Shown here in pieces: positions 3,955 through 48,200 of a stretch of DNA of 64,000 bases (position 1 is the stretch's first letter; each line of letters begins with the position of its first letter). The DNA comes from a virus, in the IMG/VR virus record IMGVR_UViG_3300028595_000011, positions 1-64,000 of that record. One strand, 5' to 3'. The notes under the pieces are model-generated. The model saw nothing but the letters and a program-made list of their open reading frames with translations. It had not been told where the DNA came from and did not search any database. Both the position numbers and the translations under genes were made by a program.

Positions 3955-3967
3955 AAAGGAGAAAGAC

Positions 3968-4087: not shown

Positions 4088-4130
4088 AAGTTCTTTGTTG
4101 TCTGTGGTTTAATATTAACAGGAGGCAATT

Positions 4131-5183: not shown

Positions 5184-5236
5184 TGGCTGGTCTGAGGAAG
5201 AGAAAGTGCAAAAAGAAAAAGGGCAAAAAGAAGTAG
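5183..5236 (+). CDS. Tiny Lys-rich peptide (17 aa), tentative
   Basis: ATG overlaps the stop of the preceding gene (TAATG), and the upstream gene's end (GGAGGAGG) doubles as a ribosome site. The peptide is MAGLRKRKCKKKKGKKK, with 11 basic residues of 17. The next ejection gene at 6009 also starts with a run of lysines (MAQKKKKKKNFKG), so the basic head may recur. It may be a genuine DNA- or RNA-binding peptide or merely a chance frame. Confidence 0.35.
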   Translation: MAGLRKRKCKKKKGKKK

Positions 5237-5265
5237 CTCAATGAACACAAGCGATGAGGTGACTC

Positions 5266-10300: not shown

Positions 10301-13300
10301 GCCGCAATGGAAAGAAGATGTCAACAACGCCACCACCAGAGAAGAGCTAGATGAGGTTGAGAAGCAGTGGCAAGAATCTGACAGGGCATCTTCCGTTGGT
10401 GTGCGTAAGGCTATTGATGCCAGGCGCAAGACGCTTGAGACTGAGGCGGCGGCTGAGATTGGCCTCGATGAGTTTGACTATGACACAACCGGGCAGAAGG
10501 GGACCATTGGTGGTGTAAATGATGGCTCATTTGTCAGGGTGACTACTGAGGATGGTCGGCTGGTAGAGGGCAGGGTGAGAGCAGAGGTGGGTGAAGAGGG
10601 ACTCATCGCCATTGATGATGGCAACAAGCTCGAATACTTTGACCCTGAAACCGAGGTCGATATTCTGGTGCGTAAGCAGAAGCCAGCGCCAAGGGTCCCG
10701 CCCAAGACCAAGCGCAAGAAGGGTAAGTACTATGGAGATCCCGACCTTGAGATGGAGATCTTCGATTACGCCAATGACTTCGAGCTTGCCAACGCAGAGA
10801 AGCCCGATGCCCAAGAGTTGTATGAGTACATGAACGAAGAGGGCGTAGACATTGAGCTTGAAGAGGTGCGTGATGCGCTTGAGAATGAGCCGTTCCTCGG
10901 TCGCACTGCGCTCGGCTGGGTTCAGGCATTTGAGAAGTTCAGTGACCAGGGCATTACTGCCACAAGGCTGAAGGACTTCATCAATAGCTCTGCTGCCCTG
11001 AAGGGCAACAAGAAGATTGACGCTGCCATGGCTCGTTATCTTATGAGCATCGCTGATGTTACACCTGTTCAGGATGTTGATGCTAAGGCTGGTGAGGATG
11101 AGCAACTTGACGTTGAGGAGCCAACCATTCCGACCGCTCCGCCAAGGAGAAGGAAGAGTGACCAGGCTCAGGATAAAACTGACGCCATTGAGTCCATCCT
11201 GAGAGAAGACGCAGAGAAAGCTGGCATCCCTAAGGATGTAGTTGATCGTGTGGTCAAGAAGATTCGGGCCGGAGAAGAGGTTACGAAGGTCATGCAGGAG
11301 GAGAAGGTCCGAGCCAACTTCCGTGGCCCAGCAGTAGAGCAGGCACAGTTCCTTGAGAAAGCAGTAGCTGAGCAGGACGCACTCGAAAGAATGCTGCGCG
11401 ATCCGTTTGAGATCGGCAAGACACCAGCCAGACGAAAGGGTGAGGCTGAGGTCGTCGCACAGACGGAAGCCGAAGAGGCAGCACCAATTAGTCAAGAGGC
11501 TAAGGACAAGATTGCAGATGCTCTTGATGGCACAACAAAGCCTGATGAGGATGTAAAGAAGTACGGCCCGATCAAGATGAACAAGAACGGAACCACGTCC
11601 GCCCGTTCCATGAAGGACCAAATTCGGAAGGCTGACACAATCCAAAGGCTTGATGACCTTGAAGCCATTGAGAGGGAGCAGGTTGTTGATGGTTTGATGG
11701 ACAAGCCTAGAGCTTCCATCATCACAGCGATTGAGAATAGGCGGAAGGAGATGGCTGGCGATTCTGTACCAACTAAGCCGGAGCCTGAAAAGGCTGGCGA
11801 GGTTGTTGAGTTTCCAGGCAGGGATGAAGAGTGGGCAGAGTTTCTGAAGAACGGAAGACTTCTCGCTAAGAGCAAGAAGACAAACGAACAAAAGACAGGA
11901 ACAGTTGTTCTTGATTCCAGTGAAACTAGAGACGGCGCTGTCGATATGGTTAAAGGGATTGTTGGGGGCAAGGGTTCCCTGGCTGATGAGATGACGAAGA
12001 TTTCAAAGAGGAATGGACAGCACATCATCTTCAATCTTCAGGTTTCTGAGAACCCTGACACGGGTCTCTTTGAAGTTCTTGGGCACTATACGCTAACGCA
12101 GAGTCCGCCCAAGATAAAGATTGCCAACTCTACGTATGGGCGAGACATCAAAAACATAGAGAAGTCTAAGTCCATCAAGAGGGCTGCGGTCCTTGAGGTT
12201 CAAGAAAGAACTGCGGCGAGCGCCGCTGTTGCTGAGCAAGTCGGAAGGGTTGCTGAGCGGGCCGATGCGACCGGCGTTTTTGTTGGCGTCGTTCTTGAAG
12301 GGAAAGATGGCAAGATGATTGCCAACTTTTTTGACGTAAATGGCAAGGATCTTGGTGCTGTTTCGTTTAGCAATGGCACGAAAGAGTATGCTGAGCTAAA
12401 GAACATTCTTGACAAGAAGTCTGGCGAAAATGTTGTGGCTGTAGAATTTAGCAAGCCCGAGTCTGAGAAAAACAAAGGCAGGCCAACCAAGCCAGAGGCC
12501 AAGGCTGCAACCAAGAAGGCTAAGGCTAAGAAGAAAACCACTCAGCCTAAGAAGGATCAGATCGAACAAGCCAGGGCTGAGCTTGAGGTGGCGAGGTCAG
12601 AGGTCCAGAGGCTTCGAGATGAGGGCGTTAACGTCTTTGATGATGAGATGCGTGCCGCAATGGACGCTCTCGATGACGCTGACGATAGGCTTGCCACGCT
12701 TCAAAGCAAGGAGGATGGGCAGTCCCCCAAAGACCCAGCCAAGAGGCCAGACAAGAAGCAGGAGAAGTCAACCAAGACTAAGACAAATGATTCTGTCCGG
12801 CCAGACAGCACCCCGTCTCTCAGGAGAGACAAGAATGGTGCCGTGTTTGTTGAAGATTTGCTCAACATCATCAACTCAGCAGACAACATGGAAGTTGTAA
12901 TGGCTGCGCTGGAAGTGTATAAGGCAGACCTTAAGAACGGTCGGCGCAAGAAGGCATCTCGCAAGATTACGAAGATGGCCGAACGCAAGATGGATGAGCT
13001 TGCTGCCTCCGAGATGGATGCAGAAGAGATATCGACTAGAGACTTCGCGTTCGATAAGAACCGGGGCAACGAAGAGATTGACTACATCTATGTGGACAAT
13101 GGGGCTGGAGGGAAGTCTCTTGTCAGAGTGGTTGGTCAAGTAAAGAAGGCCGAGTCAGAAGCAGAGGGCGAAGTTGTTGAGACAGATGAAGAGGCCAGCG
13201 CACGCATGGCAGATGTCATGGCTGCTGAATGGCCGTGGGTGAGTCAGACCGAGGAGCAAAATGAGGCTTATGAATATCTGGACAGCTTAGAGGGTGACGC

Positions 13301-16300
13301 TCAGGCTGCCGAGATCTTTGATGTCATCACTACAAGGTGGAAGTCTACCAACATGATTGATGACATGATTGATCCGACCTTTGTCAACCAAGTCTTGAAT
13401 GAGATGGAGGAACAGGCACCGTCCGTTGCTGGCAATAGACAGCTTGTTGTTGATGCGATCAGGAATGAAGAGCTTCTTGATGATGCTAGAACCATGCGCA
13501 TGTTCCTGTTCCAAGAGTACCCAGGTGCTACTACGCTTCGCAATGCAACTGGCGAGCCGATTAGCAGCAAGCTTTCTCGTTTACCAAGGCGCGCATTCGA
13601 AGACTACTTAGAGCTAGAGTCTGACAGGGTTGAGGACGAGGCCCGTGGCACGACAGCAGAACAGGCGCAGAAAGACATGCGCTCGAAGCCTGGGTTCCAG
13701 GGTAAACCTAAGCGTCCACATCCAGAACATGTGAAGCAAGCTGTCCTGATGAAAGACATTGAGCTTGGGACAATCCAAACGCTCATAGAGAACGGACACG
13801 TTGACAATGATAGCCTGAAGCGGGCCATCAACGAGGAGATTGAGAGGCGCAAGAAGGAAGATCCGAAGCGCAAGTTCCCCTCAACCATGGAAGAGGTCGA
13901 GGCATACCTTGGCGCGGTCGCTGATGCCGCCGGAATGGAGATGGCAGACCTGGTCCGCAAGGTTGTTTCTCTCGCTGATATTAACGAGAGGTCAAAGGCG
14001 GCTAGGTCAGAGCGGCAGGAAGAGGTGAAGGTTGAGAAGGCTGAGGAAGAGGATGAAGTAGCTCCAGAAGACATTGATGCCGAGGAAGAGCGGCTCGCAA
14101 TGCTGAGAGACCTCGACAACATGGGCTTCTTTGAGCTTGCCAGTGGGGAGATCGCACACCCAGGGTTCCCGAAGAAGCTTGGCGGAGAGTCCGGGAAGGA
14201 GATGATCACCAAGCGTGCGCTGGAGAATCTTGGCCCAGGAACTGAGGTTGAAGAAATTCCAGGCGGGTTCCGCATTACGGTACAGAGTGATAATGGTCCG
14301 GTCCCACTGGACATCTTGGTCACTAGCACTGATCGTGCGATCCTCAGAATGCTTGAAGAACTCACGCAGGGCGAGTTGCTCGTTCTTGCCAGAAATCTTG
14401 AGCGCCATCTGACAAGGCAGGGCGAGAGGGGGGAGAACATTCTCCCGACTGCACGCGGTTCAATTAACACAACCGCCAAGCTGATCGCAGCAATTCGAAC
14501 GGCAATGATTTTTGTGGATGTCCAAAAGGGAAGGGGTAACCTTGAGATTCCGCCGATCTCCGCTGGTAGATACGACGCAGACCCAGTTACCGGCAGACAC
14601 CTTGTTGAAATCATCTCAGGCCTTGCGTTTAGGGAGTCTGGATACCATGAGGTTGGTCACTGGTGGCTTAGGAACTTTGTGTCTGATGAAACGTTCCTCA
14701 AGATAATCAATGAGCACGGCTCAGAAGAGGATGCCGTCAACGCAATTGCTGTTGCCCTATCAAGTGCGGCAGATGCTAAAGACCTGAAAAGAAAAGAGAT
14801 GGGAACCGTTGGCAGGATTGCATCCGACATTAAAGAGTTTGCAATCAAGCTGTGGAACACGATCTTTAAGAAGGGTTCCGTTGATCCCAACGAGATCGCT
14901 AAGCTCTGGGCTGACCCGACACTCGACAACATCGTGGAGCTTTTCCAGCGGGGCGAAGCCTTCAAGAAAATGTATCCGATGATCAGCAGAGAGATGCCAT
15001 CAACCCTGACTCCTGCTGGTGTACAGAGCAGGCTCCATGACATATGGGGGACACTGCCAAGGAATAAGGATGTTCTGCGTGGCGAAACTGACAAGCCCGG
15101 ACTAGTGCTCAGCGGAGGCCCAAGGGTGGACAGCAACCCGCTGAAAATTGTTCCTGTTCGGTATGCTCTGCGCTCGTATAGTGAGGGCGACATTGATGCT
15201 GGCAGAAAGATTCTGCTTCAATCCAAGCTGACCAAGCAGGCGCATGAGGTAAGCATTGTCCCGGCAACGCAGTACCTCCAGGACATGGTTGCGCAAGCCA
15301 ACAGGGCGAGCGATGTCCACGACTACGGCGATGTCACACACGTTGTGTTTGTGCGAGAGCCGCGGTTTGGTGACATGTGGATTCCTGTGCAGTTTGTGAA
15401 TGCAAGCAGCACTGCCGCAGCCAGACAGCAGGTCACAGACATGTGGGAATCTGGAGAAGACAGCTTCTTCTGGGTTGGCAACAGCGTTGGCCGTGGCCGG
15501 ATTGGATTCAATCTTGCCGGAAGAAATCCCGAGGATTCAAGGCAGCTTGACGATCTCGCCCGTGTTATTGACTTGCATCTTCCGGAAGATGTCAGCGAGG
15601 CACAGCTTCCCCTTGAGCAAGATGCCGCAGCGAGACAGGGTGGCACCCAGCGGCAGATGGAGCAGCCATCATTCCTCGATAGGATGAAGGCACACAGATT
15701 CCGTGGCATGAAGTCCTGGCTAAATGCTAACCTCAAGCCAGCCAGGGGTTTAGATAAAGAACTGTACCTCACCCTCATTGATCGCAGGCGTGGCGCAATG
15801 AAGGGCAAGGTGATGGGCAAGGCCGCCAACCAGCGCGTGCGTAAGATAATCAAGCAACTCAAAGACAAATTCGGTGAAGAGCGAATCAACAACACCCTGT
15901 CCATGGTTCTTGATGGGCGCATGCCAGTTGATCAGTTCAAGAGGATCTACGGACTTAAGAACGACAACCCAGAAATGGTCGAGCTTCAGAAGATTCTTGA
16001 TGAATCTGCACGGCTGAGGGCCGAGTTGTCTGCCAGCCCAAACATCCCCCAGAAGCTGAGGGATCTCATCCTTTCTAACGAGTTCTATCAAACTAGAATG
16101 TATGCGATCCATGCCCTTGGCAACGGGTATGTTGCACCGCAGGATGCATATCAGGCTGCAGTCGATGCCGTCTTTGACATGCATGAAGAAGAAATCAACA
16201 GGCTCATCACCCGAGCCAACAAAACCATTGGGCGCAGAGAGGTGTTCGATCTTCCTGGGTACATGCAGGCACCAGTTGCACAGAGGCAGCAGATGCTTCA

Positions 16301-18791
16301 GGGTCTCTCACGAACCAAGAAGGCAGCGATTGAGAACCTTGCTAAAGCAATGGACCCATGGATGGAAGTCATTGATTCCCTTGAACTTAGAGACGGCAAC
16401 CTGATTGCTCAGTGGTCTCAGGAATCCTTGAGCAGCATGGCTGCTGATACTGTTGAAGGCTACCTAAGTAGCTCAGCCAACAAAGGCAAGTCTGTGCCTG
16501 GTCCGATTGGCGGCATGCCAATCACACACCAGATGAAGCGCAAGCTGGACGAGACGTTCCGTGAATTGTACGGAGAGATCACAAGTCCGGGCGAGAGGTT
16601 GTCGAGAACCATGGAGGTTCAACACGATCTCCTCGCAGCAAGCGTCATGTTCCAGAAGATCTTCGAAGAAGGCGAAGGTAAGTGGTGGTCACGAGCAAAG
16701 CGTGGCAACTTCTCAGAAAGATTGGCCAGCGGACGTGGCATCACGCCCGCCGACCGCAGGAAGTATGGCAACATGGCTGGGATGTACGTCACGCAAGAGA
16801 CATACGATCTCCTCCATGGCGAAGGAACCTTTGATCAGATTACCGAGGGCTTCGCCCCCACCAGGTGGTTCAACCAACTTCAGGCTGTCACTCGTGCGAC
16901 TAGGTTAATCTGGCCGAAGACAATCCTTCGCAATGGCTTTACTTCGGTGACAGGCTTTGCTGCCAGATCTGGTGATATCTTCAACAAGAACTGGCTAAAG
17001 CACATGAAAGATGGAACAGCCCTCGCCGCCAGAGTTGGCAGGGCCATCATGGCAGATGAGGGCTGGGCACCAGGAAAGCAGGGAGATCCGGAGGCTTTAG
17101 AAATCCTTGCTGACTTGGTAGCCAAAGATGTTTTCGACTTCTCACAAGACTCTATTCTGACTGCGATTGATGCGAACATTAAGATCACTGCTGAATCTAA
17201 GAAGGGTAGCCCGATGCGCATCCTTCGTGAGTCGATGATGCTGTATGCGTTGATCGACCTGCCAGCGAAGTATGCATCCTACTACTCGATGCGTGATGAG
17301 GGAGCGAGCCACGAAGAAGCAGTGCAGCATGTCCGTGACCACTACCAGTACAGGGACTATGTCCCACTTGGCGTGAGCAAGATCAACCGAGCGAGCTTCG
17401 GGGATTACTTCGGTTACACCTTTGATTCCACAAGGACGTGGATCAATAGCATGAATCGGGCAGCAAGAGAAGCCAAGAAGGGCAACCTGAGACCACTCAT
17501 GGGCTTCATGTTGTCTGCAACGATACCGATCTTCCGCTTCGGCTCCGGTGGATGGCTTGCAGCAGCCTCACCCAAGTTGTATACGAGCATCGTTCATGCG
17601 ACTGCGAGTCTTGGGAATCTCTTGACAGCACTCGGCATGAAGGATGATGACGATGATGACACCTGGAAGATTGCAACTGACGAGCAAGTTGCGGCGCTCC
17701 GTGAATCCCTGCCATCATATGATAGGTATCAACCACTCGCTGTCTGGTACGAGAAGAACGAGGATGGTGACTGGAACCTTAAGTGGTATGTGATGGGCAA
17801 CCTTTCGGCATTCCCAATCGAGGATGTAATCATTGGGGCATGGCAGGCATCCAATCAGAACACAGAGCTATCATTCATTGATGCGCTGATTCACAACACG
17901 TCGCAGGCATCCCCGTTCTCTTGGGGCATGACTGTTGAGAACGTGGTCAAGGCAACGACTGGTTATGATATGTCTAGCGGCTGGTCACAGCCTGGGCTGT
18001 GGGATGTATATGACAGCTTCCGTGACTCAAAAGACGGCACTGCCATCAGGCCCGACGCTGGAGAGATAGTAGCCAATAGGCTCTTCGATTTTGTTTCTGA
18101 ATCCTTTGCACCTGGACAAACCGGGAATACAATCCGCACCGCATCTGAAGTCATTCAGGGACGGGAACCTCGTCTTGGGCGGTTCGTCAGGCGCAAGAAA
18201 TTTAGCGATGTGGTGGACATCTTTGCAAGATTGCAACGTAGCTATGATGCCGCACCAGAGGATCAGGCTCGGCTCTTGGATAAGATGACAAGGAACAACT
18301 TTGAAAACCTGGAGATCGCCAAACGGATGGCCGGAACCGCTGGGCGCAAAGAACTGGAGTGGAAGGATGGAGCAGTTCGCAGTGAGCTACTCCGAACCGA
18401 GCGCGGCCAACGCGCATGGCATCGTGCGCTGCTCAACATCCAGAAGAAGGTTCAAAACTTTAGAGTCTTGACCAACGGTAACTTCAGTGACCAGGAGATC
18501 AAGGACATGTTGCGATCCTTCGGCACTATCAGGGCAGCCGAGGCTGACCACATTGTAAGAGGAACAGTGGAGCAGATGACTGCATCCGAGTTCGAGATCA
18601 AGAGTAGACCATTACCAACACAGCGTGGTGATGACAAGGTCCTTGAATACTTCGAGCAGACCAAGGGTGGCCAGGTATTATACAAGCCGCTCTGGGAAAG
18701 CATGAAGGAACAAGGCTATGCTGTTGGTGAACTCAAGTCATTTAGAACCAGAGCTAAGAAACTACGCAAGGATTGGATGAAGCAGCAGTAG
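7311..18791 (+). CDS. Giant polyvalent virion protein with HEVGH metallopeptidase motif (3826 aa)
   Basis: A single uninterrupted 11.5 kb frame starting with ATG after a GAGGTGAGCT site. Visible parts: soluble N-terminus; hydrophobic small-residue segment about 527-583 (VPLMVPAAVVSAATGG...) followed by a TTSEYAEEWLQTFF helix at about 668; a long charged, low-complexity linker region of roughly residues 940-2150 with Lys/Glu and Pro-rich tracts; a zincin-type motif at 2446-2450 (YHEVGHWWLRNF); helical region with RNGFTSVTGFAARSGD at about 3207; a hydrophobic stretch 3394-3442; an Asp run at about 3444; basic C-terminus. This layout matches the large polyvalent proteins described in phages and conjugative elements, which are injected with DNA and carry several effector domains. 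I saw no RNA polymerase motifs. The gene ends immediately against the minus-strand block. Confidence 0.75.
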   Translation: MTTHDALFMFKDKKWKENTPLQLQYAAFATALKNDPGWKKMPPEVKAKVYKQNFGFESPFELINNPEFEFDSFDVEQRERIFDAVTINDDNWHNLGDEEKRLIKGKKIPEVGQRFLEAEAAGVQEPVELPKDEQGRIEVQPNVPHRPQIDGQYVVPPLQRPDDYSDQPIKASPPEGEGMYFPEVSNQLPPEVVEDIVNAPESVRPYLESEFGDKPFVSQREYDQSLRAMAMEQPDAPLPHGNINIGSPKDPVILSGSRIEVGTQRGVIEITPEEGERMFNRGVIRHHVETPNGVVMLRDPSKLSEEELAKARELDYVRPELMKNPAVAAYMKFNQGAGIDDVLNWAASKGEQVIDNKTLAGLAEFGITSQEQAIKMLAKKGHREAMMDQITGAPLSPEFHGLSRASQVKFIMDRVPLESEEDKREFTKKFMEQFVDPVKKDFDSLPDHLRPEYPKDPMERGVELRKHPYWNSLKAGTGDLLMAVGGAMWLTGDAMVQGGKEEGMELIEKGKEISDKYTDTEVEADLGQQLLRTAPVSVPLMVPAAVVSAATGGALLPVAIAAAGSGIAESFMEGGSTAAESLLAGDQEAVARSKGIRVTRDNLIYQAGMSIPEAYAAFVPTAKLTEAAAKLPGLRNIKMTPKMTEAWNTMGRVGVTKALDTAGRIALDTTSEYAEEWLQTFFQQAADQDKDTFSWDSIANATNAEMEERHGAGVVGAHFGGGMAVAGQPVQAVATYFSKEGTANRIQKKLFESEVNRLAEKFDAKPSEIRADIEAAYRTEGLMDEANTEVEVLSKELNIEEDEVRADLDGARSAAWGSHEQEDVTMLSQMFGVPEYFVRQNWDEVNAAAGRGALDEDTKTPASPEEAALEPGTTSVPAGVSAEVATSFDGIPDAHKGLIVDRATQVANMRIKAKMDQYGLDEKTADQFPENEREQIVKDSFEQVWRIYADSEPGRAALGKGESQKPTKPPTKAEEPKATPTTQKGTAKSTAPSVKLVPQWKEDVNNATTREELDEVEKQWQESDRASSVGVRKAIDARRKTLETEAAAEIGLDEFDYDTTGQKGTIGGVNDGSFVRVTTEDGRLVEGRVRAEVGEEGLIAIDDGNKLEYFDPETEVDILVRKQKPAPRVPPKTKRKKGKYYGDPDLEMEIFDYANDFELANAEKPDAQELYEYMNEEGVDIELEEVRDALENEPFLGRTALGWVQAFEKFSDQGITATRLKDFINSSAALKGNKKIDAAMARYLMSIADVTPVQDVDAKAGEDEQLDVEEPTIPTAPPRRRKSDQAQDKTDAIESILREDAEKAGIPKDVVDRVVKKIRAGEEVTKVMQEEKVRANFRGPAVEQAQFLEKAVAEQDALERMLRDPFEIGKTPARRKGEAEVVAQTEAEEAAPISQEAKDKIADALDGTTKPDEDVKKYGPIKMNKNGTTSARSMKDQIRKADTIQRLDDLEAIEREQVVDGLMDKPRASIITAIENRRKEMAGDSVPTKPEPEKAGEVVEFPGRDEEWAEFLKNGRLLAKSKKTNEQKTGTVVLDSSETRDGAVDMVKGIVGGKGSLADEMTKISKRNGQHIIFNLQVSENPDTGLFEVLGHYTLTQSPPKIKIANSTYGRDIKNIEKSKSIKRAAVLEVQERTAASAAVAEQVGRVAERADATGVFVGVVLEGKDGKMIANFFDVNGKDLGAVSFSNGTKEYAELKNILDKKSGENVVAVEFSKPESEKNKGRPTKPEAKAATKKAKAKKKTTQPKKDQIEQARAELEVARSEVQRLRDEGVNVFDDEMRAAMDALDDADDRLATLQSKEDGQSPKDPAKRPDKKQEKSTKTKTNDSVRPDSTPSLRRDKNGAVFVEDLLNIINSADNMEVVMAALEVYKADLKNGRRKKASRKITKMAERKMDELAASEMDAEEISTRDFAFDKNRGNEEIDYIYVDNGAGGKSLVRVVGQVKKAESEAEGEVVETDEEASARMADVMAAEWPWVSQTEEQNEAYEYLDSLEGDAQAAEIFDVITTRWKSTNMIDDMIDPTFVNQVLNEMEEQAPSVAGNRQLVVDAIRNEELLDDARTMRMFLFQEYPGATTLRNATGEPISSKLSRLPRRAFEDYLELESDRVEDEARGTTAEQAQKDMRSKPGFQGKPKRPHPEHVKQAVLMKDIELGTIQTLIENGHVDNDSLKRAINEEIERRKKEDPKRKFPSTMEEVEAYLGAVADAAGMEMADLVRKVVSLADINERSKAARSERQEEVKVEKAEEEDEVAPEDIDAEEERLAMLRDLDNMGFFELASGEIAHPGFPKKLGGESGKEMITKRALENLGPGTEVEEIPGGFRITVQSDNGPVPLDILVTSTDRAILRMLEELTQGELLVLARNLERHLTRQGERGENILPTARGSINTTAKLIAAIRTAMIFVDVQKGRGNLEIPPISAGRYDADPVTGRHLVEIISGLAFRESGYHEVGHWWLRNFVSDETFLKIINEHGSEEDAVNAIAVALSSAADAKDLKRKEMGTVGRIASDIKEFAIKLWNTIFKKGSVDPNEIAKLWADPTLDNIVELFQRGEAFKKMYPMISREMPSTLTPAGVQSRLHDIWGTLPRNKDVLRGETDKPGLVLSGGPRVDSNPLKIVPVRYALRSYSEGDIDAGRKILLQSKLTKQAHEVSIVPATQYLQDMVAQANRASDVHDYGDVTHVVFVREPRFGDMWIPVQFVNASSTAAARQQVTDMWESGEDSFFWVGNSVGRGRIGFNLAGRNPEDSRQLDDLARVIDLHLPEDVSEAQLPLEQDAAARQGGTQRQMEQPSFLDRMKAHRFRGMKSWLNANLKPARGLDKELYLTLIDRRRGAMKGKVMGKAANQRVRKIIKQLKDKFGEERINNTLSMVLDGRMPVDQFKRIYGLKNDNPEMVELQKILDESARLRAELSASPNIPQKLRDLILSNEFYQTRMYAIHALGNGYVAPQDAYQAAVDAVFDMHEEEINRLITRANKTIGRREVFDLPGYMQAPVAQRQQMLQGLSRTKKAAIENLAKAMDPWMEVIDSLELRDGNLIAQWSQESLSSMAADTVEGYLSSSANKGKSVPGPIGGMPITHQMKRKLDETFRELYGEITSPGERLSRTMEVQHDLLAASVMFQKIFEEGEGKWWSRAKRGNFSERLASGRGITPADRRKYGNMAGMYVTQETYDLLHGEGTFDQITEGFAPTRWFNQLQAVTRATRLIWPKTILRNGFTSVTGFAARSGDIFNKNWLKHMKDGTALAARVGRAIMADEGWAPGKQGDPEALEILADLVAKDVFDFSQDSILTAIDANIKITAESKKGSPMRILRESMMLYALIDLPAKYASYYSMRDEGASHEEAVQHVRDHYQYRDYVPLGVSKINRASFGDYFGYTFDSTRTWINSMNRAAREAKKGNLRPLMGFMLSATIPIFRFGSGGWLAAASPKLYTSIVHATASLGNLLTALGMKDDDDDDTWKIATDEQVAALRESLPSYDRYQPLAVWYEKNEDGDWNLKWYVMGNLSAFPIEDVIIGAWQASNQNTELSFIDALIHNTSQASPFSWGMTVENVVKATTGYDMSSGWSQPGLWDVYDSFRDSKDGTAIRPDAGEIVANRLFDFVSESFAPGQTGNTIRTASEVIQGREPRLGRFVRRKKFSDVVDIFARLQRSYDAAPEDQARLLDKMTRNNFENLEIAKRMAGTAGRKELEWKDGAVRSELLRTERGQRAWHRALLNIQKKVQNFRVLTNGNFSDQEIKDMLRSFGTIRAAEADHIVRGTVEQMTASEFEIKSRPLPTQRGDDKVLEYFEQTKGGQVLYKPLWESMKEQGYAVGELKSFRTRAKKLRKDWMKQQ

Positions 18792-23250: not shown

Positions 23251-23415
23251 CTAGTTTGACCAAGTGATCTCGGCCAACACAACTTTGTATGTGCTAAGTC
23301 CAGCAGACTCAAAGCTTTCCTTTACTTCCTTCGCAGCTTCTGGATCTTCGAAAACATCAACGACTATATCGTCGTCACAGTCCACAAGAACCCACTGTCT
23401 ACTCGTCATCTTCAT
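23251..23415 (-). CDS. Small acidic protein (54 aa)
   Basis: The frame starts inside the end of the nuclease gene (overlap 17 bases). It reads MKMTSRQWVLVDCDDD...VFEDPEAAKEVKESFESAGL and ends ITWSN. It looks like a compact alpha/beta domain with strand, acidic loop, helix and strand. Translation is probably coupled to the upstream nuclease. No family recognised. Confidence 0.55.
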   Translation of the reverse strand: MKMTSRQWVLVDCDDDIVVDVFEDPEAAKEVKESFESAGLSTYKVVLAEITWSN

Positions 23416-23896
23416 TCTTGTCTACCCCCAAGGCCTGTTGAATTAGATCAAATGCTGAACCCATCTTAACGTCTTTCCAATCTACCTCAAGATATGTCCA
23501 GCCCTCAAGGTTTGCGAGGTTGCTCTTGTCCATGTCCCTGCGCCTGCCTTCAGGGGAATGGTGTGCGCCACCTAAGTAATGGACCTTGCCATCCTTTGAG
23601 CGGCGCACAACATAACTTCCTCCGTGGATCTCGACGAGTAGTCTTTCTGTAGGTATTGCGAGATCTGCACGGAACCTTCTCTTCGTAGAGAAAACATATT
23701 CAAGGTACAGAGTCGATGGCTTAACTTCCATTTTGGAATTCCAACGACCACCAAACTCGATCCCCATTTGTTCTAGCTCAATGATCAGGTTCATTAGAGC
23801 CAAGTCTCTGTCACGCTTGGCTTTAGTATCTTTCCTCTTCATCCCCACTTTGCCAGCAAGACGGCGGAACTCTTCAAGCGTTGTGTTCTGATTCAT
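23399..23896 (-). CDS. PD-(D/E)XK-type endonuclease-like protein (165 aa)
   Basis: Start chosen at MNQNTTLEEF (GGGAGTCAAAG upstream) rather than the longer frame. The C-terminal two thirds show the Vsr/DUF559-like nuclease pattern: RFRADLAIPTERLLVEIHGG (candidate D and E of the active site), HHSPEGRRRDMDKSN and LEGWTYLEVDW. The N-terminus is a helical segment that could bind DNA. A single-gene nuclease of this size may process branched or mismatched phage DNA or degrade host DNA; which one is unknown. Neighbouring genes overlap at both ends. Confidence 0.7.
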   Translation of the reverse strand: MNQNTTLEEFRRLAGKVGMKRKDTKAKRDRDLALMNLIIELEQMGIEFGGRWNSKMEVKPSTLYLEYVFSTKRRFRADLAIPTERLLVEIHGGSYVVRRSKDGKVHYLGGAHHSPEGRRRDMDKSNLANLEGWTYLEVDWKDVKMGSAFDLIQQALGVDKNEDDE

Positions 23897-24071
23897 CTTT
23901 GACTCCCACAATAGGATACACAAAGACTTCACAGAATGCAATTGCGAAGAGGATCATGTCACACAGTGTGGACTTGATCCAGCGTAGCACTAAAAGAAAG
24001 AACGCTATCCAGAGGATGAAACCATAATAGATTGCGAAGAGTACGATGGGTGAAACTACCAGCAGTTTCAT
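23874..24071 (-). CDS. Small membrane protein, two or more spans (65 aa)
   Basis: MKLLVVSPIVLFAIYYGFILWIAFFLLVLRW forms one long or two short spans, and MILFAIAFCEVFVYPIVG another. The frame remains open upstream for ~25 codons with further hydrophobic sequence (LLLPAILLGAAVLSFG) but no ATG or GTG, so a non-AUG start or an N-terminally longer product is possible. Overlaps the nuclease start by 23 bases. Confidence 0.55.
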   Translation of the reverse strand: MKLLVVSPIVLFAIYYGFILWIAFFLLVLRWIKSTLCDMILFAIAFCEVFVYPIVGVKDESEHNA

Positions 24072-24642: not shown

Positions 24643-25212
24643 CTAGCTCTCCTTTCTAACACCTCCCCTGTTTTCTAGGAGCCACATCGCCTCCCTCAAC
24701 GCTATTGGATAGTCTTCCCTCGATGACCATACGATGCCCATCCGGGGGAAGCTGGATTCAATCCATGCCTTGCATAGATCAACCAGCTTGGCCAATGTAG
24801 TGCGGAGCATGGCAACCTCTAGCTCCTGTCCATGTTTGGGCGGGGCTGGCTCTTCGTTAGCCTCATCAACAGCCTCGGCAACAACTGCCCTGGCAAACTT
24901 TCTTGCCCTGGTAGATGCTCCCTTCGGTGTCAGCGCACCGCCCCATGACTTTCCTCGCCACAGCCTACCGTTGTAGATCATAGCGTAATGAGTGAAGTAG
25001 TTCTTCGCTTCCTCATTACCCATAAAGATTCGGTCGTTGTGTTTAACAGCCTGGCTATACACTATGCCATGCTCTGTAAACGTGATGCTCTCAAGCGAGA
25101 TATCTGAAAGATCCATGCTCATCTTGCCCAGAGCCATCACGTTGCTTCGTGACAGGCCAGGTCGGAACTTGACAGACCACGGCTCCCAGAAGTAGCTCGC
25201 ATCAGCAGACAT
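24643..25212 (-). CDS. Hypothetical protein (189 aa), end of the amidoligase operon
   Basis: MSADASYFWEPWSVKF at the start, a predominantly beta N-terminal half (SDISLESITFTEHGIVYSQ) and a helical C-terminal half (ELEVAMLRTTLAKLVDLCKAW). No recognised motif. The start overlaps the stop of the 118-residue gene by one base, so it belongs to the same operon as the amidoligase and amidotransferase. Confidence 0.6.
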   Translation of the reverse strand: MSADASYFWEPWSVKFRPGLSRSNVMALGKMSMDLSDISLESITFTEHGIVYSQAVKHNDRIFMGNEEAKNYFTHYAMIYNGRLWRGKSWGGALTPKGASTRARKFARAVVAEAVDEANEEPAPPKHGQELEVAMLRTTLAKLVDLCKAWIESSFPRMGIVWSSREDYPIALREAMWLLENRGGVRKES

Positions 25213-25568
25213 TAGTTCTCCTCACCCTCCGGCACGGTGGAATCAACAATCTTCGCAACCATCTTGTTGCTGTTTTGTTCTGTGTATTCCACCATCTCCC
25301 TCATTGAATCCCCGTCAACCCCGAGGTTATGAAGGAACAGCATTTGAGCCAGAAGAATATCATGCCATACCAACCCGACATCCTTGTCGGATGAGGCAGG
25401 GAACCACTCAACCATGGATGCCTGACTTGCTGATGCCCCCTTGCCAATGAAGACAAATACAGCACCATCAATCAGACTTGCATCCTGTTGTTTGGTCATC
25501 TCCAAGAATGACTCAAGCATCATTACATATTCTGGTGTTACTTCCATTTTACTCCCCGCTTCACTCAT
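25212..25568 (-). CDS. Hypothetical protein (118 aa)
   Basis: MSEAGSKMEVTPEYVMMLES; acidic, alpha/beta, with a GAVFVFIGKGASASQASMV strand-turn segment and an acidic tail (VPEGEEN). Overlaps the upstream zinc-ribbon gene by 4 bases and the downstream one by 1, so translation is coupled. Unknown role in the operon. Confidence 0.6.
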   Translation of the reverse strand: MSEAGSKMEVTPEYVMMLESFLEMTKQQDASLIDGAVFVFIGKGASASQASMVEWFPASSDKDVGLVWHDILLAQMLFLHNLGVDGDSMREMVEYTEQNSNKMVAKIVDSTVPEGEEN

Positions 25569-26740
25569 GCGATGTTGAATGCCTGCTCAACATTCTGATA
25601 CATTGAATGCTCTGTCATTGTGAAGGCTTTTGTAATTAGATCAGAGTCGATACTCTGAATCACTTTGTCTGTCGGGAATTGAACATCCCCACTCTTTTTG
25701 ATGATCGACCTTGCTCCAGCCTTCTTCTGTGCAAGAGCATATATGACCCTCAATGTTTCGTTAACTCCGGCGGAGTCAACACGCAACACACCCATACTGG
25801 AGAGTTGTTTTGCAAAGCTTGCGATCTCATCGTTGAACATTGAGTCAATGTAATCTGCACGATAAGAGTCTGCCATTTTTTCATCGAGGATCTGCATCGG
25901 ATCTTCATTGAGCCTCAGGATCAACTGTAAGGCGAGGTTATCAGTTGAAATTCCTAACTGAAGAAACTCACCAGATGGTGTGATCCTACATCCCAACTTT
26001 TTCATCACTTCCGTGTTGACACGCCCTCTAATAAAGTGCTTGCCTCTGTTGGCAAAGGATGGATTATCAGACATCTTGATCTTGAACACAAGCCCACCTT
26101 CATAGCGGACTATCGTGTTGGGTACGTTGTCTTTGATTTGCAGCAACATTCGAGCCTTGGCTGCGTGGGCAAGGCGATTGATGCTTATCTTAGTAGCCAT
26201 CGCAAGCGTTGCAGCAGCCCTTACTTCATGGTCATCAATGTGTTCTGCACGTATTGATGTGACACAATTACAAGATGGACAACAGTAAATATACTTTACC
26301 CCATAATTATCATCTGGCGGAAAAACTGACCCGGCTCGACACGAAGGATTGATGCACACTCCATATATCAGATCTTCATCCCCGTATCGTCTTTTCAAAT
26401 TGTATGCCACAAGCTCATCGAATTGTTTGCAATCAAACAATTTTTGATGGAAGGCGACATACTCGGTTGGTGACATATGCGTTATCGCATTGATGCGTGC
26501 GATGTGTTCTCGTCTCTCGTCAAGAGAGCCAGTGAATCCATCTATCCACTCAATCTCTCTGTCGCCCCTCTGGGCCAGGAGATCAGCAACATCAAGCATG
26601 AATCCGCTCGTGTCTGGATGCCACCAGACAATGCCCGTATATTCACTCAGTGGTTGTTGGTATTCAGACCACCAGTACCACTGAATGGTTTTATGCATCC
26701 TCTTCCATCTGCCCCCATTTTCATGGGTTCCATTGTCCAT
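25565..26740 (-). CDS. Zinc-ribbon protein of the amidoligase operon (391 aa)
   Basis: Aromatic-rich N-terminus (TIQWYWWSEYQQPL). At about residues 128-158 there is a four-Cys ribbon (CINPSC ... CCPSCN), then a long alpha/beta region (MLLQIKDNVPNTIVRYEGG, a SGEFLQLGIS segment) and a helical C-terminus. I do not recognise a family. It lies 14 bases behind the glutamine amidotransferase and overlaps the next gene, so it is likely the third component of the same pathway. The ribbon is shared in type with the other two proteins. Confidence 0.65.
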   Translation of the reverse strand: MDNGTHENGGRWKRMHKTIQWYWWSEYQQPLSEYTGIVWWHPDTSGFMLDVADLLAQRGDREIEWIDGFTGSLDERREHIARINAITHMSPTEYVAFHQKLFDCKQFDELVAYNLKRRYGDEDLIYGVCINPSCRAGSVFPPDDNYGVKYIYCCPSCNCVTSIRAEHIDDHEVRAAATLAMATKISINRLAHAAKARMLLQIKDNVPNTIVRYEGGLVFKIKMSDNPSFANRGKHFIRGRVNTEVMKKLGCRITPSGEFLQLGISTDNLALQLILRLNEDPMQILDEKMADSYRADYIDSMFNDEIASFAKQLSSMGVLRVDSAGVNETLRVIYALAQKKAGARSIIKKSGDVQFPTDKVIQSIDSDLITKAFTMTEHSMYQNVEQAFNIA

Positions 26741-26754
26741 AAACGAACTCCTTT

Positions 26755-27972
26755 CTATGCGTCTTGTTCACCGAAGTACAGCAGCCCATACTCCTGAACT
26801 ATTTCCCAGTGATCTTGGATGTATGTCCTTTTGCTCTGACAGAATGGGCAGAGAACAGCTTTCTCTGTTCCACCACAACTGACCACTTCCCTGGTGTCTA
26901 CTACACCATCATCTTCATGGAAGTATGAGGCACAGTCAAAGCACATCATGCCCTGGTCACTCCAGTCTGCCTCTTTTTCCAAGAAACCCCACCCCTGACT
27001 CTCAGTCTTGACAATCTTTTTGCTTTGACCTTCTTTGTCAAACAGCTTGTCAGCCTCGACTGTTGAGTCAGAGTCACAGTTGGGGCATCGGACAATTTCC
27101 TTGTAGCCCATGTCCCACTTAATAAGTCTCGATTCACCACGCTCGAAGTATCCATGACAATCAACGCAGTAGTAGCTGATGTATTCCTTTGTGTTCTTGT
27201 CCTTGTCGGATCGAAGAACCTTCTTTGTTTCGGAACAATCTATACTAACAGCACACTTGTCCTTGTCGAACGCATTGGTTATTGGGTTTCCAGCAGCGCC
27301 ACCATATCCATAGGTAGCCTTATTCTTGATCTGGTTTCGATTGTACTTATAGTTCTTGCCATAGGTTATGGTCGAAGATTTGTATGGCTTCCAAAGCATA
27401 TTGGAAAACCACACGTCCTTGTACCCCGACACCTGACCCCATGATCCTTGGTGCTCATTCACGATGGCAACATCACCGTTGCTATCCATGAACACCAGCT
27501 TGTTGCCACCGATGAACTTGCCGAGCATCTTATTGATAACACCAACACCGTCAAGTGTTTCAGTTGTGATGCCAGCCACAAGGTCTTCATGTAGTGGATG
27601 CAGGACATCCAGAATGAATGTTTCCGTGTCGCTAATGTCTTCATCCTTTGGCACATCAACGCAACTGAGTACCCCGTTGTGTGCCATGTAGACATCTTCG
27701 GTTACACCGAATGGATGAGTGTTCTCTGGTCGAACACTGCCGTGAGTTGCGATGCGAAAGTGGAGAACAACAGGGAGAGACTTGAATCTCTCCTTGCCCA
27801 TGCGCTTGATGAATCGTTTCATCGAGCGCCATCGCATGAAGCCCTTCTTCACATGCAACTCACCATCCTCAGCGAACATCAGGCCAGCGCCGTCGCTATT
27901 CTTTTTCCAGCACTGCTTCAGAACATCCATGTCTACATCCACATCAGATGGCTTGTAGACGATAACGCACAT
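26755..27972 (-). CDS. Class II glutamine amidotransferase (Ntn hydrolase) with C-terminal zinc ribbons
   Basis: 405 residues. The N-terminal ~200 are a class II glutaminase: Cys2 nucleophile exposed after Met removal (MCVIVYKP), NSDGAGLMF (25-33), HFRIATHG (71-78), ENTHPFGV, MAHNGVL (96-102) and SDTE. These are the residues that bind and hydrolyse glutamine to release ammonia. Instead of a synthetase or isomerase domain, the C-terminal half carries Cys pairs (CVDCHG, RCPNCDSD, CFDCAS, LCPFCQ), i.e. two ribbon-like units. The amidoligase gene ends 9 bases upstream, so the natural reading is an ammonia donor acting in trans with that ligase. The substrate is unknown. Confidence 0.85.
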   Translation of the reverse strand: MCVIVYKPSDVDVDMDVLKQCWKKNSDGAGLMFAEDGELHVKKGFMRWRSMKRFIKRMGKERFKSLPVVLHFRIATHGSVRPENTHPFGVTEDVYMAHNGVLSCVDVPKDEDISDTETFILDVLHPLHEDLVAGITTETLDGVGVINKMLGKFIGGNKLVFMDSNGDVAIVNEHQGSWGQVSGYKDVWFSNMLWKPYKSSTITYGKNYKYNRNQIKNKATYGYGGAAGNPITNAFDKDKCAVSIDCSETKKVLRSDKDKNTKEYISYYCVDCHGYFERGESRLIKWDMGYKEIVRCPNCDSDSTVEADKLFDKEGQSKKIVKTESQGWGFLEKEADWSDQGMMCFDCASYFHEDDGVVDTREVVSCGGTEKAVLCPFCQSKRTYIQDHWEIVQEYGLLYFGEQDA

Positions 27973-27981
27973 GCAATCTCC

Positions 27982-29496
27982 TTACTCCTCACGCTCAAAC
28001 GTCAGCACCTCTGTCGTTTGGTTGAGGCATATGAAATTTTTGTAGGCTGCACCTCTCTCGTGTACGAAATCAATGAATCTTTCGTACGTCGTGTGGTTGT
28101 ACCCACAAGTCTTAGTGAAATCGAATAGAGCTTGAAGAAACTCTACGTTGCCAAAGTATACTGTCGGAGCTAGCGTGCTTCTGAAGATGCGACACTCAAC
28201 AGTGTTCGAATTGCTCGTGTTGATTGCCGATCCCCTGCCGTGTGGTTGTTCTCCTCGTTTGGTTCGAGCGATGCTTAACAGTTCCTTGTTATCACCCAAG
28301 TTTGTGTTGGCCCACTGTCTCAGTCTTTTGGCCGGTCGCCTTGAGATCCTTGTGATGAATGCTTCATTCTCCTTGAAGAACTTCATAAACTTCAACAAGT
28401 GAAAGTTGGTGAAGGCATCGTTGCTCATGTGGACGTGCATCCCACAGTTCTCAGCATCATATCCTTTCATCAGCTTTGCGAGATTGAACATGGGTTTAAA
28501 TGCATCCTCGTTCTTCTTCATCCACTCGTATGTGAATGGATGACTGACCAACTCGAACCCATTCCTGATTGATGAGTCACTCTTGCAGTAGAAGAGACCG
28601 TTCCCTCCATCCTGCTCACCGAGTTGGATCAGTGCAGATTCACGAGGAACACCCTGACCCTTCGCCATTTCAATCTCAACCTCTGTTCCAAAGAACAGCG
28701 CACGTTCATCGAGATTGATCTCGACCTTCCTGAAATCGGGAATAGGTCGATGACTGTAGTTCCTTATCTGATAAGCACCAGCAACTCTGTTACCTGCCCT
28801 TCTGTAACAATCCGGGCAAATGCCAGTGTTAGCACTTAAGTCCCTGACGTAACGACACCGCACCTCAAGCGTGCCTCCAGGCACATCACGATATGCATTG
28901 CTGCAAGATGTACAAGTGTACATCCTCGACCTCATGACGTTTACGTCAAGCTCACAAACCATAGTAAGCGCAGCCTCAACTTCAGCAACATCTCTCGATC
29001 TTCGCTGACGAATGATCGTGTTAATCTGCTGGGCTGCATGAACTCGACACAGCTTTCTACCTTCAACTTCCCACACCCTGGAACGGAGCCGATCACTGTC
29101 ACACTCGGCGCATGGATTCAGTGTATCCATGCAACTGGGACACCAGAGTTCTCCATTTGGTGACTCCATCCCCTCGGTTTGTAGTGTCGGCTGATCACAT
29201 GATGGACAGAAAAAGTATGCGTCATTGAAGCACCTATAACAGAGCCGATTACCTTGAAGGTCTCGCCTCATCTGTTCCTGTGCATCTTCGTCTCGCGGTG
29301 TAAAGCAGAGCCTTTCACAGCCCTCGGCAGAACACTGCTGAACAGCAGGGGACCCTATCTCTACACACTCTTTACAGATAGCAGTAGTATCCTGCCAGTC
29401 GAAGTACACTGGCGCATGATAATCCCGTGGTCCCATGAAGGTAGACTCGCACACACAGCACCTCCACTCACTTCGAGCTTTCGGTACGTGCGACAT
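27982..29496 (-). CDS. Phage-type amidoligase (glutamine-synthetase-like) with N-terminal zinc-ribbon array
   Basis: 504 residues. The first ~230 contain many CxxC pairs (CCVC, CKEC, CYRC, CPSC, CAEC, CTSC, CPDC), several ribbons in tandem. The C-terminal part matches the amidoligase family related to glutamine synthetase: GTEVEIE (270-276), KSDSSI..GFELVSHP (305-320), CGMHVHMS (351-358, metal/nucleotide ligands) and VECRIFRST (433-441). Family members are predicted to form amide or peptide bonds using ATP. It is followed by a glutamine amidotransferase, a coupling predicted before for such ligases. What is ligated (protein, peptide, cell-wall or nucleotide) is not deducible here. Confidence 0.85.
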   Translation of the reverse strand: MSHVPKARSEWRCCVCESTFMGPRDYHAPVYFDWQDTTAICKECVEIGSPAVQQCSAEGCERLCFTPRDEDAQEQMRRDLQGNRLCYRCFNDAYFFCPSCDQPTLQTEGMESPNGELWCPSCMDTLNPCAECDSDRLRSRVWEVEGRKLCRVHAAQQINTIIRQRRSRDVAEVEAALTMVCELDVNVMRSRMYTCTSCSNAYRDVPGGTLEVRCRYVRDLSANTGICPDCYRRAGNRVAGAYQIRNYSHRPIPDFRKVEINLDERALFFGTEVEIEMAKGQGVPRESALIQLGEQDGGNGLFYCKSDSSIRNGFELVSHPFTYEWMKKNEDAFKPMFNLAKLMKGYDAENCGMHVHMSNDAFTNFHLLKFMKFFKENEAFITRISRRPAKRLRQWANTNLGDNKELLSIARTKRGEQPHGRGSAINTSNSNTVECRIFRSTLAPTVYFGNVEFLQALFDFTKTCGYNHTTYERFIDFVHERGAAYKNFICLNQTTEVLTFEREE

Positions 29497-30534: not shown

Positions 30535-30738
30535 CTACGGTACTTGGTAGTATTCTTCCCACCAATCTTCATACGCTATGTAGTCAGCCCTCCGAAACGC
30601 AGTTCTTATTGACTTGAGCTTCTCAGCCTGGTTGTTGTTGAGGTTTTCGAGGTACTTGATTCTCTCTTTATACCTCACTGTCACGTACGCCAAAGCCATG
30701 CCTTGGAATATGATGCAGCTAATCACAAACAAGTTCAT
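30535..30738 (-). CDS. Small membrane-anchored protein (67 aa)
   Basis: MNLFVISCIIFQGMALAYVTV is an N-terminal anchor, followed by a basic helical cytoplasmic part (RYKERIKYLENLNNNQAEKL) and an acidic, aromatic end (WWEEYYQVP). The start overlaps the stop of the 30735 gene (ATGA), and the ribosome site AAAGGAGG lies within that gene's last codons. Confidence 0.6.
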   Translation of the reverse strand: MNLFVISCIIFQGMALAYVTVRYKERIKYLENLNNNQAEKLKSIRTAFRRADYIAYEDWWEEYYQVP

Positions 30739-31016
30739 GGCAGCCTCCTTTTGATTGCGTTATCAGTAATCATTGCCCTTACTCTTGGCAATCTTAGAAA
30801 GCACTCTTCGCACAGCCACTGAACTGGCTGACTCCTATGTACCCTGCGATAGTTAGCAACATTCGAATCTATCCAATCTTGCTCTTCAGCATTGAACCCC
30901 TCGCACAGTTGATCCTCTTCAATTGCCCTCTCTTGATCATCATCATTAAGCCTGTAGAAATCAAAGCGGCAGATGATACCCTCTTCAATGAGTTGCCTCA
31001 ACCCACGCCTTGGCAT
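30735..31016 (-). CDS. Zinc-knuckle protein, paralogue of the adjacent gene (93 aa)
   Basis: Shares with the 31029-31316 product RQLIE(N/E)G.IC, AEE..WIDSN, Y.RR and a late C..CF.LP, then a closing IKR(K/R)LP. The two arose by tandem duplication and have diverged. Cys residues (IC, LCEECF) suggest a zinc site. No outside family recognised. The IKRRLP codons double as the ribosome site of the next gene. Confidence 0.65.
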   Translation of the reverse strand: MPRRGLRQLIEEGIICRFDFYRLNDDDQERAIEEDQLCEGFNAEEQDWIDSNVANYRRVHRSQPVQWLCEECFLRLPRVRAMITDNAIKRRLP

Positions 31017-31028: not shown

Positions 31029-31316
31029 TCATGGCAGCTTCCTTTTAATTGGTTCCATCTTTCGATTGCGAGTGGGCGGCAACGCCGTAAAGCAGTCCGC
31101 ACATAGATATCGTACAGGACCTGGACCTGTAGGCAACAGCCCTCTCCTGATGTAATGCACACAATTACTGTCTATCCACTCGCCTTCCTCGGCATCCCAT
31201 GCCTCACATCTAGCGCCAATGTTCTGACCCGAAACGTACTCACTGTATCTGATTATTCGATAATCCTCTTGGCAAATCTCGCCGTTCTCTATCAGTTGCC
31301 TGAAGTCTGCTGGCAT
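31029..31316 (-). CDS. Zinc-knuckle protein, tandem paralogue (95 aa)
   Basis: MPADFRQLIENGEICQEDYR, then WDAEEGEWIDSN, YIRRGLLPTG, YLCADCFTALP and the C-terminal EPIKRKLP. It aligns over its whole length with the next gene downstream (30735-31016). Start placed at the ATG three bases after the upstream gene's stop. Function unknown; a small metal-binding regulator is plausible. Confidence 0.65.
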   Translation of the reverse strand: MPADFRQLIENGEICQEDYRIIRYSEYVSGQNIGARCEAWDAEEGEWIDSNCVHYIRRGLLPTGPGPVRYLCADCFTALPPTRNRKMEPIKRKLP

Positions 31317-46089: not shown

Positions 46090-46758
46090 ATGGACGAACA
46101 AAAAGCTGTTGAGCTAATGAAGGAACTCGGGGTCAGTTGCGAGATCGGAACCGAGACCTACGAAGCAATGCTTGAACATCCGACCGTTGCCGCCTTTATG
46201 AAGGGTGAGGTTAGCATGAGCCAGGCTATCTTTGTTGAAGAGTATCTAGCCAATGGCTTTAATGCTTCTAGGGCAGCCAAGGCTGCCAAATACAGGGCAT
46301 TCAATAAGGGCGGGTTCTCAAGTATTGGGAGCGTCGTGATGAAGAGCAAGAGGGTTAAGTCTCTGATTGCCAGGCGCATTACCGAGAGGGCAATGAATGC
46401 TAATGAAGTGCTTGATCGCTATAGAGATATTGCTGACGGCACCATCGGTGCCTTCTTGAGTGACGACTACAGTGCTGTTGATTTAAGGAAGGCTGCCGAT
46501 GAAAACAAATTGCACTTGCTCAAAGACTTGAAGATTGATTCCGAGGGCAACGTGCAAATCAAGATTCGAGACCAGGATCACGCGCTGGATCAGCTTGCGC
46601 GATCTCTTGGGGTGTTCGAAAAAGACAACACGTCGAAGCTCCCGCCGGAAATCATTGCCCTCCTTGGGCTGTCTCCGCAAGAGCTACAGGCCAGGCAGGA
46701 TGCGTATAGAGACATGAAGTCCGAGTTGGAGGGCGACAATGCAGCCGATGCCGGTTAG
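46090..46758 (+). CDS. terS: Terminase small subunit
   Basis: Start at MDEQKAVELMKELGVSCEIG after AGGAGGTCCGTC. Residues about 40-110 match terminase small subunit family 2: FVEEYLANGFNASRAAKAAK (helix-turn-helix), IGSVVMKSKRVKSLIARRIT, and NEVLDRYRDIADGTIGAFLS. This protein recognises phage DNA and regulates the large subunit. C-terminal part is helical (ALDQLARSLGVFEKDNTS). It overlaps the large-subunit ATPase gene by 20 bases. Confidence 0.88.
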   Translation: MDEQKAVELMKELGVSCEIGTETYEAMLEHPTVAAFMKGEVSMSQAIFVEEYLANGFNASRAAKAAKYRAFNKGGFSSIGSVVMKSKRVKSLIARRITERAMNANEVLDRYRDIADGTIGAFLSDDYSAVDLRKAADENKLHLLKDLKIDSEGNVQIKIRDQDHALDQLARSLGVFEKDNTSKLPPEIIALLGLSPQELQARQDAYRDMKSELEGDNAADAG

Positions 46759-47485
46759 TGATGAAGAACTAACAGCACTAATCACAAACCACCAAGTAAT
46801 TGACGAGGCGCTTGCCAAGGATTGCTGGAAGTGGTGCTGCCATCTTGTTGTCACTGTAGACGAGGCGGCAGACGAGGGCGTCTCTCGTCGTCGTCGATGG
46901 CCAGCCCGCCTCAAATATATTCAGGAAGCAATGCAAATCCTTAAGAATGAAAGGTTTGTGATCTTCCCGAAGTCTCGCCGCATGATGGCCACCTGGCTCA
47001 TCTGTGCCTACCTGCTACATGATACACGCTACACGCCGGACTCGGCAAACTTCATCCTGTCTGAGACGGAGCAGAAGGCCGCGTTCTGTATTGACAAGCG
47101 TTGTTACCATATGGAAACCAATCTACGATTCCCAGAATTCCAGAAAGAAGTCCACACCCTAAGAACCAAGACTGGCCTTATCGGGCGCATGACGTATCCC
47201 CACAACGGCTCGTACCTTTGGGGTCTCGCTAGCACTGGAGATGCGCTGCGCGCTTATACCGCCACCAAGGTTTTCGTGGATGAAATTGAATTCATTGAAC
47301 AGGCCCCGGCGCTCACCCGCGCACTTGTGCCGCTGATCGAGGGCGGGGCGCAGGCAATCTTTGCATCGTCCAGCAATGGCCCAACAGGAATCATTGCGGA
47401 GTATTGCAGAGATGTCTCCTTTCACAAATGGGAAGATCTTGCTAAACTAAATGCTGAAGACGTTGGAATTATGTACGCAAGTTAA
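46739..47485 (+). CDS. terL-N: Terminase large subunit, ATPase half (248 aa)
   Basis: Contains the packaging ATPase: FPKSRRMMATWL (76-87, a Walker A variant of the KSRR type), ETEQKAAFCI, Walker B VFVDEIEFIE (178-187) and motif III FASSSNGPTG. The frame ends at MYAS* without nuclease. The nuclease half is encoded at 48971-49867, after two other genes. Usual TerL is ~450-550 residues in one chain; 248+298=546 fits a full enzyme in two pieces. Confidence 0.85.
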   Translation: MQPMPVSDEELTALITNHQVIDEALAKDCWKWCCHLVVTVDEAADEGVSRRRRWPARLKYIQEAMQILKNERFVIFPKSRRMMATWLICAYLLHDTRYTPDSANFILSETEQKAAFCIDKRCYHMETNLRFPEFQKEVHTLRTKTGLIGRMTYPHNGSYLWGLASTGDALRAYTATKVFVDEIEFIEQAPALTRALVPLIEGGAQAIFASSSNGPTGIIAEYCRDVSFHKWEDLAKLNAEDVGIMYAS

Positions 47486-48190: not shown

Positions 48191-48200
48191 GGGAGATTGC

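Follow-up and report, generated by a model that had tools for sequence, protein, structure and literature searches.

A divergent amidoligase and glutaminase gene pair in a tailed phage genome

Gene layout of the locus

The subject of this study is a pair of neighbouring genes, for a putative amidoligase and a class II glutaminase-type protein, in the IMG/VR virus record IMGVR_UViG_3300028595_000011. The window, that is the whole stretch of DNA analysed, comprises 64,000 of the 64,450 bases of this record (its positions 1 to 64,000). Judged by its RecT, RecE, DnaB, terminase, portal and capsid genes, the record is a tailed phage of bacteria. The pair opens a run of five consecutive open reading frames (ORFs) on the minus strand with lengths of 504, 405, 391, 118 and 189 amino acids (aa), the first three being spaced 9 and 14 bases apart and the junctions after them overlapping by 4 and 1 bases. 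An earlier interpretation made from the letters alone, here called the sequence-only reading, had described these five packed genes, and coordinates, strand, lengths and spacing were all confirmed. Shine-Dalgarno-like motifs (AAAGGAG, AAGGAG or GAGGAG) were found upstream of four of the five starts, and a further ORF of 162 aa lies 15 bases beyond the run. Given RecE, RecT and a strand switch, it is plausible that the operon sits in an early block. The features of the pair are the following.

27982..29496, minus strand: predicted glutamine synthetase (GS)-fold amidoligase, 504 aa, first gene of the pair (PF12224, phrog_2443/7469, AlphaFold2 (AF2) model, Foldseek)
28057..28713, minus strand: putative catalytic core of the ligase, residues 262-480 (GxExE 270-274, DxS 307-309, GxHxH 352-356, ExRxF 434-438)
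28807..29460, minus strand: Cys-rich N-terminal region of the ligase, residues 13-230, probable tandem LIM-like/treble-clef zinc fingers (eight CxxC, shuffle test, LIM matches)
26755..27972, minus strand: class II glutamine amidotransferase-type protein with N-terminal nucleophile (NTN) fold, 405 aa, Cys2 (PF13230, GlmS and PurF profile matches)
27076..27168, minus strand: predicted zinc ribbon 1 of the glutaminase protein, C269/C272...C296/C299 (CxxC count; Zn_ribbon_PaaD just under cut-off)
26839..26943, minus strand: predicted zinc ribbon 2 of the glutaminase protein, C344/C347...C375/C378 (CxxC count)

Sequence and structure analysis of the two proteins

The 504-aa protein matched the Pfam family Amidoligase_2 (PF12224) at 4.3e-5 with 23.9 bits against a curated cut-off of 22, and the same family was found by 46 of its 51 aligned homologues. 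In PHROGs it matched phrog_2443/7469, annotated as "amidoligase". A scan of IMG/VR with the single ligase protein gave no match. Among 157 ligase homologues the residues of the GxExE, DxS, GxHxH and ExR motifs are near-invariant; E272, E274, D307, E315, H354, E434 and R436 are present in 153-155 of them, the remainder being gaps plus one K. An AF2 model was computed from 51 aligned sequences, with five rows from annotated phage records left out, and reached a mean predicted local distance difference test score (pLDDT) of 78.5, exceeding 90 across most of the core. The best Foldseek matches of this model in the PDB were Dop, the gamma-glutamylmethylamide synthetase GmaS, YbdK, PafA and glutamine synthetases, with probabilities of about 0.9-1.0, E-values of only about 1e-3 and low whole-chain template modelling scores. 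There is thus good, though not conclusive, support for a GS-superfamily fold of the ligase.

Within its first 230 residues the ligase has eight CxxC motifs, a count reached by none of 20,000 shuffled sequences. LIM domains occurred among the Foldseek matches, LIM profiles matched below significance, and PF00412 (LIM) was detected in three of the 51 homologues (best 6.2e-9). Several weak lines thus point to LIM-like zinc fingers. The number of N-terminal CxxC motifs ranges from 0 to 14 across the homologues; consequently, such fingers are common in this ligase family and not universal.

The 405-aa protein matched Pfam GATase_4 (PF13230) above the cut-off at 3.3e-7. It begins with MC, and the cysteine is kept in 160 of 161 homologues. 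C2, R73, T76, H86, N99, G100 and D115 are each retained in 159-160 of the 161, so that the full set of glutamine-site residues (Arg, Thr, His, Asn-Gly, Asp) is present. The family profile matched the glutaminase domain of GlmS (1.2e-13) and also PurF, in the same order when a larger alignment was used. D115 and R73 align with the GlmS residues which bind the amino group and the carboxylate of the glutamine substrate. Four CxxC motifs (shuffle p 0.00035) make up two predicted C-terminal zinc ribbons, and Zn_ribbon_PaaD matched just under its cut-off (5.2e-6). Both assignments agree with the sequence-only reading, which had proposed a GS-like amidoligase and a class II amidotransferase with Cys2; its ligase motifs at residues 270-276 and 433-441 indeed align with those of amidoligases (G270xExE and E434xR).

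Occurrence of the pair in other genomes

The pairing was determined at two sets of 80 loci. The glutaminase-seeded IMG/VR loci were chosen without presupposing a ligase. At 71 of these 80 loci the ligase gene lies directly upstream on the same strand, and four further loci (L061, L062, L085 and L087) revealed a ligase with an improved profile or by eye. Two of the remaining loci end at a contig edge and three have no ligase, which gives an adjoining ligase in 75 of 78 evaluable cases. Around ligase seeds the glutaminase follows directly downstream at 76 loci and the other four are cut, corresponding to 76 of 76 evaluable cases; homologous operons therefore keep the partner glutaminase, as the sequence-only reading had expected. 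For both sets of counts the seed alignments came from pair-bearing phages, and more distant solitary relatives are possibly under-sampled; the broader alignments A1 and A2 were too diverse for scanning and narrower ones were used. The two genes overlap or lie at most 30 bases apart in 146 of 167 measured pairs.

A search of about 85,000 bacterial and archaeal genomes yielded 19 glutaminase loci, 16 of them with a ligase. The same alignment used as query in IMG/VR gave 279 confirmed stretches, and the pair is thus mainly a phage trait. The glutaminases form at least 104 clusters at 90% identity. Named phages with the pair are Marvin, MEP402 and MW202733; a Heliusvirales phage has small genes in between. 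The conserved unit is the pair, which recurs in a great many unrelated phages, and not the run of five genes.

Some loci show other arrangements. Contig L044 (3603-6849) carries four class II glutaminase genes in tandem beside a dihydrofolate reductase gene, and in L033 (4134-7554) the glutaminase gene is flanked by genes for thymidylate synthase and dihydrofolate reductase. At L060 (about 3950-6740) an amidoligase gene has a glutaminase gene on each side. A candidate ligase-glutaminase fusion, a single open frame in an Atopobiaceae metagenome-assembled genome (L176, 4513-6759), was rejected as proof of a fusion: its Cys2 would not be N-terminal and its linker resembles a shifted frame. This single frame may be a sequencing frameshift.

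The three downstream genes

The remaining genes of the run gave the following features.

25565..26740, minus strand: 391-aa orphan, co-directional with the pair and outside the conserved unit (without relatives in searches)
26264..26356, minus strand: Cys cluster of the 391-aa protein, C129, C134, C153, C154, C157 and C159 (one possible zinc site)
25212..25568, minus strand: 118-aa protein, no family assignment in Pfam and PHROGs scans, no Cys
24643..25212, minus strand: 189-aa protein, no family assignment in Pfam and PHROGs scans

No relative of the 391-aa protein was found in phages, plasmids, IMG/VR, PDB, Pfam, PHROGs, NCBIfam or PADLOC, and a single-protein IMG/VR scan with the 189-aa protein was empty. 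None of the 391-, 118- and 189-aa proteins had a sequence relative encoded in the neighbourhood of the roughly 180 homologous pairs. Profile-profile comparison of these three and the 162-aa protein with 147 neighbour families likewise gave nothing, with a best probability of 9.9%. The 391-aa gene falls outside the shared unit, and the three genes are probably co-transcribed with the pair and presumably play roles of their own.

The sequence-only reading had regarded the 391-aa protein as a zinc-ribbon protein whose ribbons hold the target of the enzymes. This view found no support. The protein contains a single CxxC, and six of its eight cysteines fall inside 31 residues (p 0.00025), which is compatible with at most one small zinc finger or site; in all other respects the protein resembles nothing known, and a single-sequence model was uninformative (pLDDT 34). 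Moreover, it has no relative near the pairs, and the fingers are mainly on the ligase. CxxC arrays had been assigned to three proteins. They exceed chance in the ligase and in the glutaminase but not in the 391-aa protein (p 0.14). The sequence-only reading had also raised whether these three genes stay together in other phages: the ligase and glutaminase genes do, whereas the 391-aa gene does not.

Comparison with known systems

The sequence-only reading had correctly noted that such pairs were predicted before; most of the phage papers cited here on amidoligase and glutamine amidotransferase (GATase) genes refer to the prediction that Iyer and colleagues published in 2009. The pair described here is a divergent one. 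Such pairs have already been reported in Marvin and MEP401/402 and in the larger cassettes of LUZ24 and phiEco32. In Mycobacterium phage Marvin (cluster S) gp105 and gp106 form a neighbouring pair in the same order. Where they align with the window proteins, identity is 25% and 28%, and the ligase again has its zinc motifs N-terminally, the glutaminase C-terminally. In contrast to the window, the two Marvin genes are 79 bases apart (9 in the window), there are fewer zinc fingers, the ligase has a long C-terminal extension and no third gene is in common. The Methylophilales phages MEP401 and MEP402 possess an overlapping pair, gp06-gp07, which their authors assign to PF12224 and GATase (PMC10580990). 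The glutaminase is the best phage match, 35.6% identical over half the protein. Unlike in the window, there are few CxxC motifs in the N-terminus of the MEP ligase, and the pair is followed by replication genes and not by a 391-aa protein.

Amidoligase and GATase genes have also been described in LUZ24-like phages (PMC3890496), phage tf (PMC3517423) and a Planctomycetes phage (PMC10945688), and RIO1-like phages carry a seven-gene cassette for which peptidoglycan alteration was proposed (PMC5498523). The "peptidoglycan modification" cassette of LUZ24, phiEco32 and RIO-1 comprises a COOH-NH2 ligase, an amidoligase, a GATase, an ATP-grasp protein and a gamma-glutamyl cyclotransferase. As in the window, an Amidoligase_2 and a class II GATase gene stand side by side in LUZ24 (gp18-gp19), and the glutaminase families are related (8e-10), whereas the comparison of the window ligase profile with LUZ24 gp18 fell short of significance (0.064). 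No gamma-glutamyl cyclotransferase was found in the 64,450-base record by a search that detected it in control genomes. The window also gave no match with an ATP-grasp ligase profile that finds LUZ24 gp21 and phiEco32 gp80. The COOH-NH2 ligase family PF14395 had no match in the record, but the control genomes gave none either. At 41 of 161 pairs a relative of this ATP-grasp ligase is encoded downstream, which links the two-gene unit to the LUZ24/phiEco32 cassette. Since the window has no ATP-grasp gene and a cyclotransferase was found in just 3 of 45 contigs, the window belongs with the reduced form seen in Marvin and the MEP phages.

Outside phages, MurT-GatD is alike in its working only, without a claim of homology: a separate glutaminase and an ATP-dependent ligase act together. 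Its folds are unrelated to those of the phage pair, GatD being a class I glutaminase and MurT having the Mur-ligase fold. The sequence-only reading had considered the chemistry unusual since no synthetase domain is fused to the glutaminase. This argument does not hold, as a separate ligase can be the synthetase in the manner of MurT-GatD.

Proposed function and alternatives

We propose, with a probability of about 0.5, that the two genes of the pair together code for a glutamine-dependent amide synthetase made of two subunits. The complete glutamine-site residues suggest that the Cys2 NTN protein would bind glutamine and free ammonia. Judged by its fold and residues, the GS-fold amidoligase would turn a carboxylate into an acyl phosphate with the help of ATP and Mg2+ and couple it to the glutaminase-derived ammonia. 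Transfer of ammonia from the glutaminase to the ligase would be the simplest reading. Docking of the two proteins to each other, or of a protein substrate, would be the most likely role of the zinc ribbons on the glutaminase and the LIM-like fingers on the ligase. Because pairing is near-obligate and both the glutamine site and the ligase site appear intact, two-subunit glutamine-dependent amide synthesis is probably the best explanation. Several points weigh against it. The phage contigs L033, L036 and L044 have a glutaminase and no detectable ligase, so the glutaminase may also act alone. Between ligase and glutaminase distances there is a weak correlation, smaller than in the strongest shuffles (rho 0.15; shuffle maximum 0.32). 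Proteins of the class II fold such as EgtC cleave gamma-glutamyl bonds without passing on ammonia, as the phage protein may do too, and the literature on the larger cassettes leans to gamma-glutamyl and peptidoglycan chemistry.

The main alternative, which we hold tentatively as a possible one, is that the ligase couples a protein or metabolite to glutamate, another amino acid or a small peptide by an amide bond, often of the gamma-glutamyl type, and that the NTN protein removes or trims the added group, as in EgtA/EgtC or PafA/Dop. Enzymes acting on gamma-carboxylates (Dop, PafA, YbdK, GmaS) are among the nearest structures, the ATP-grasp ligases downstream of the pairs are homologous to LUZ24 gp21 (1.7e-49) and phiEco32 gp80 (1.7e-54), both annotated as RimK-type, and LIM-like fingers would suit a protein substrate. 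Yet no EgtC entry came up with the glutaminase profile at E-values up to 1, whereas GlmS and PurF did, and both the rarity of the cyclotransferase among the contigs and the lack of cyclotransferase and ATP-grasp genes in the window speak against such chemistry. A further reading concerns the target and is compatible with either chemistry: the pair would alter host peptidoglycan or another cell-surface carboxylate and so bring about superinfection exclusion. This was proposed for cassettes of the phiEco32/RIO-1 type and repeated for MEP401/402 (PMC5498523, PMC10580990), and MurT-GatD is a known case of wall-glutamate amidation by a separate glutaminase and ligase (PMC3267633). We consider it rather unlikely, as the phage papers cited report no test of the proposal, the pairs are spread over phages of very different hosts, and zinc fingers suggest a cytoplasmic protein or nucleic-acid partner. 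A wall target has been guessed at in the literature; the fingers are a mild argument for a protein target.

That all five genes form a single pathway, with the 391-aa protein presenting the target, appears very improbable: the tight spacing of all five would favour it, but such spacing is general in this block, and the last three have no relatives beside the homologous pairs, neither by sequence nor by profile-profile comparison. Quite speculatively, the pair could be a widespread phage system which covalently amidates or tags specific host proteins, with the LIM-like fingers on the ligase selecting them, for cell takeover or for blocking defence, while the gene packed behind it would add lineage-specific targeting.

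Phage amidoligase and GATase genes have been annotated for more than 10 years without a tested function in the phage papers cited. The recurring unit is two genes alone, usually without the cyclotransferase and other genes of the better-known cassette, which narrows the biochemical question to two co-expressible proteins. The pairing at 75 of 78 and 76 of 76 loci is firm ground to seek one shared substrate.

Genome context

Searches for closer phage relatives via capsid and RecT gave a best capsid identity of 69% (on a 15.6-kb contig) and at most 48% for RecT, with the operon in none of the stretches fetched. PADLOC gave no defence-system match, and the window contains no Rfam or tRNA features. 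The terminase large subunit (TerL) gene is apparently split, with TerL-family matches at 46739-47485 and 48971-49867; in between lie a DNA polymerase exonuclease-type gene (48147-48974) and a gene of no known function. A 180-aa protein (23399-23941) matches phrog_503 (3.3e-18), whose function is not annotated. Two tandem paralogous small proteins, 38% identical and with one CxxC each, are encoded at 30735-31016 and 31029-31316. A single ORF of 3,826 aa without a Pfam match (7311-18791) takes up about 18% of the genome.

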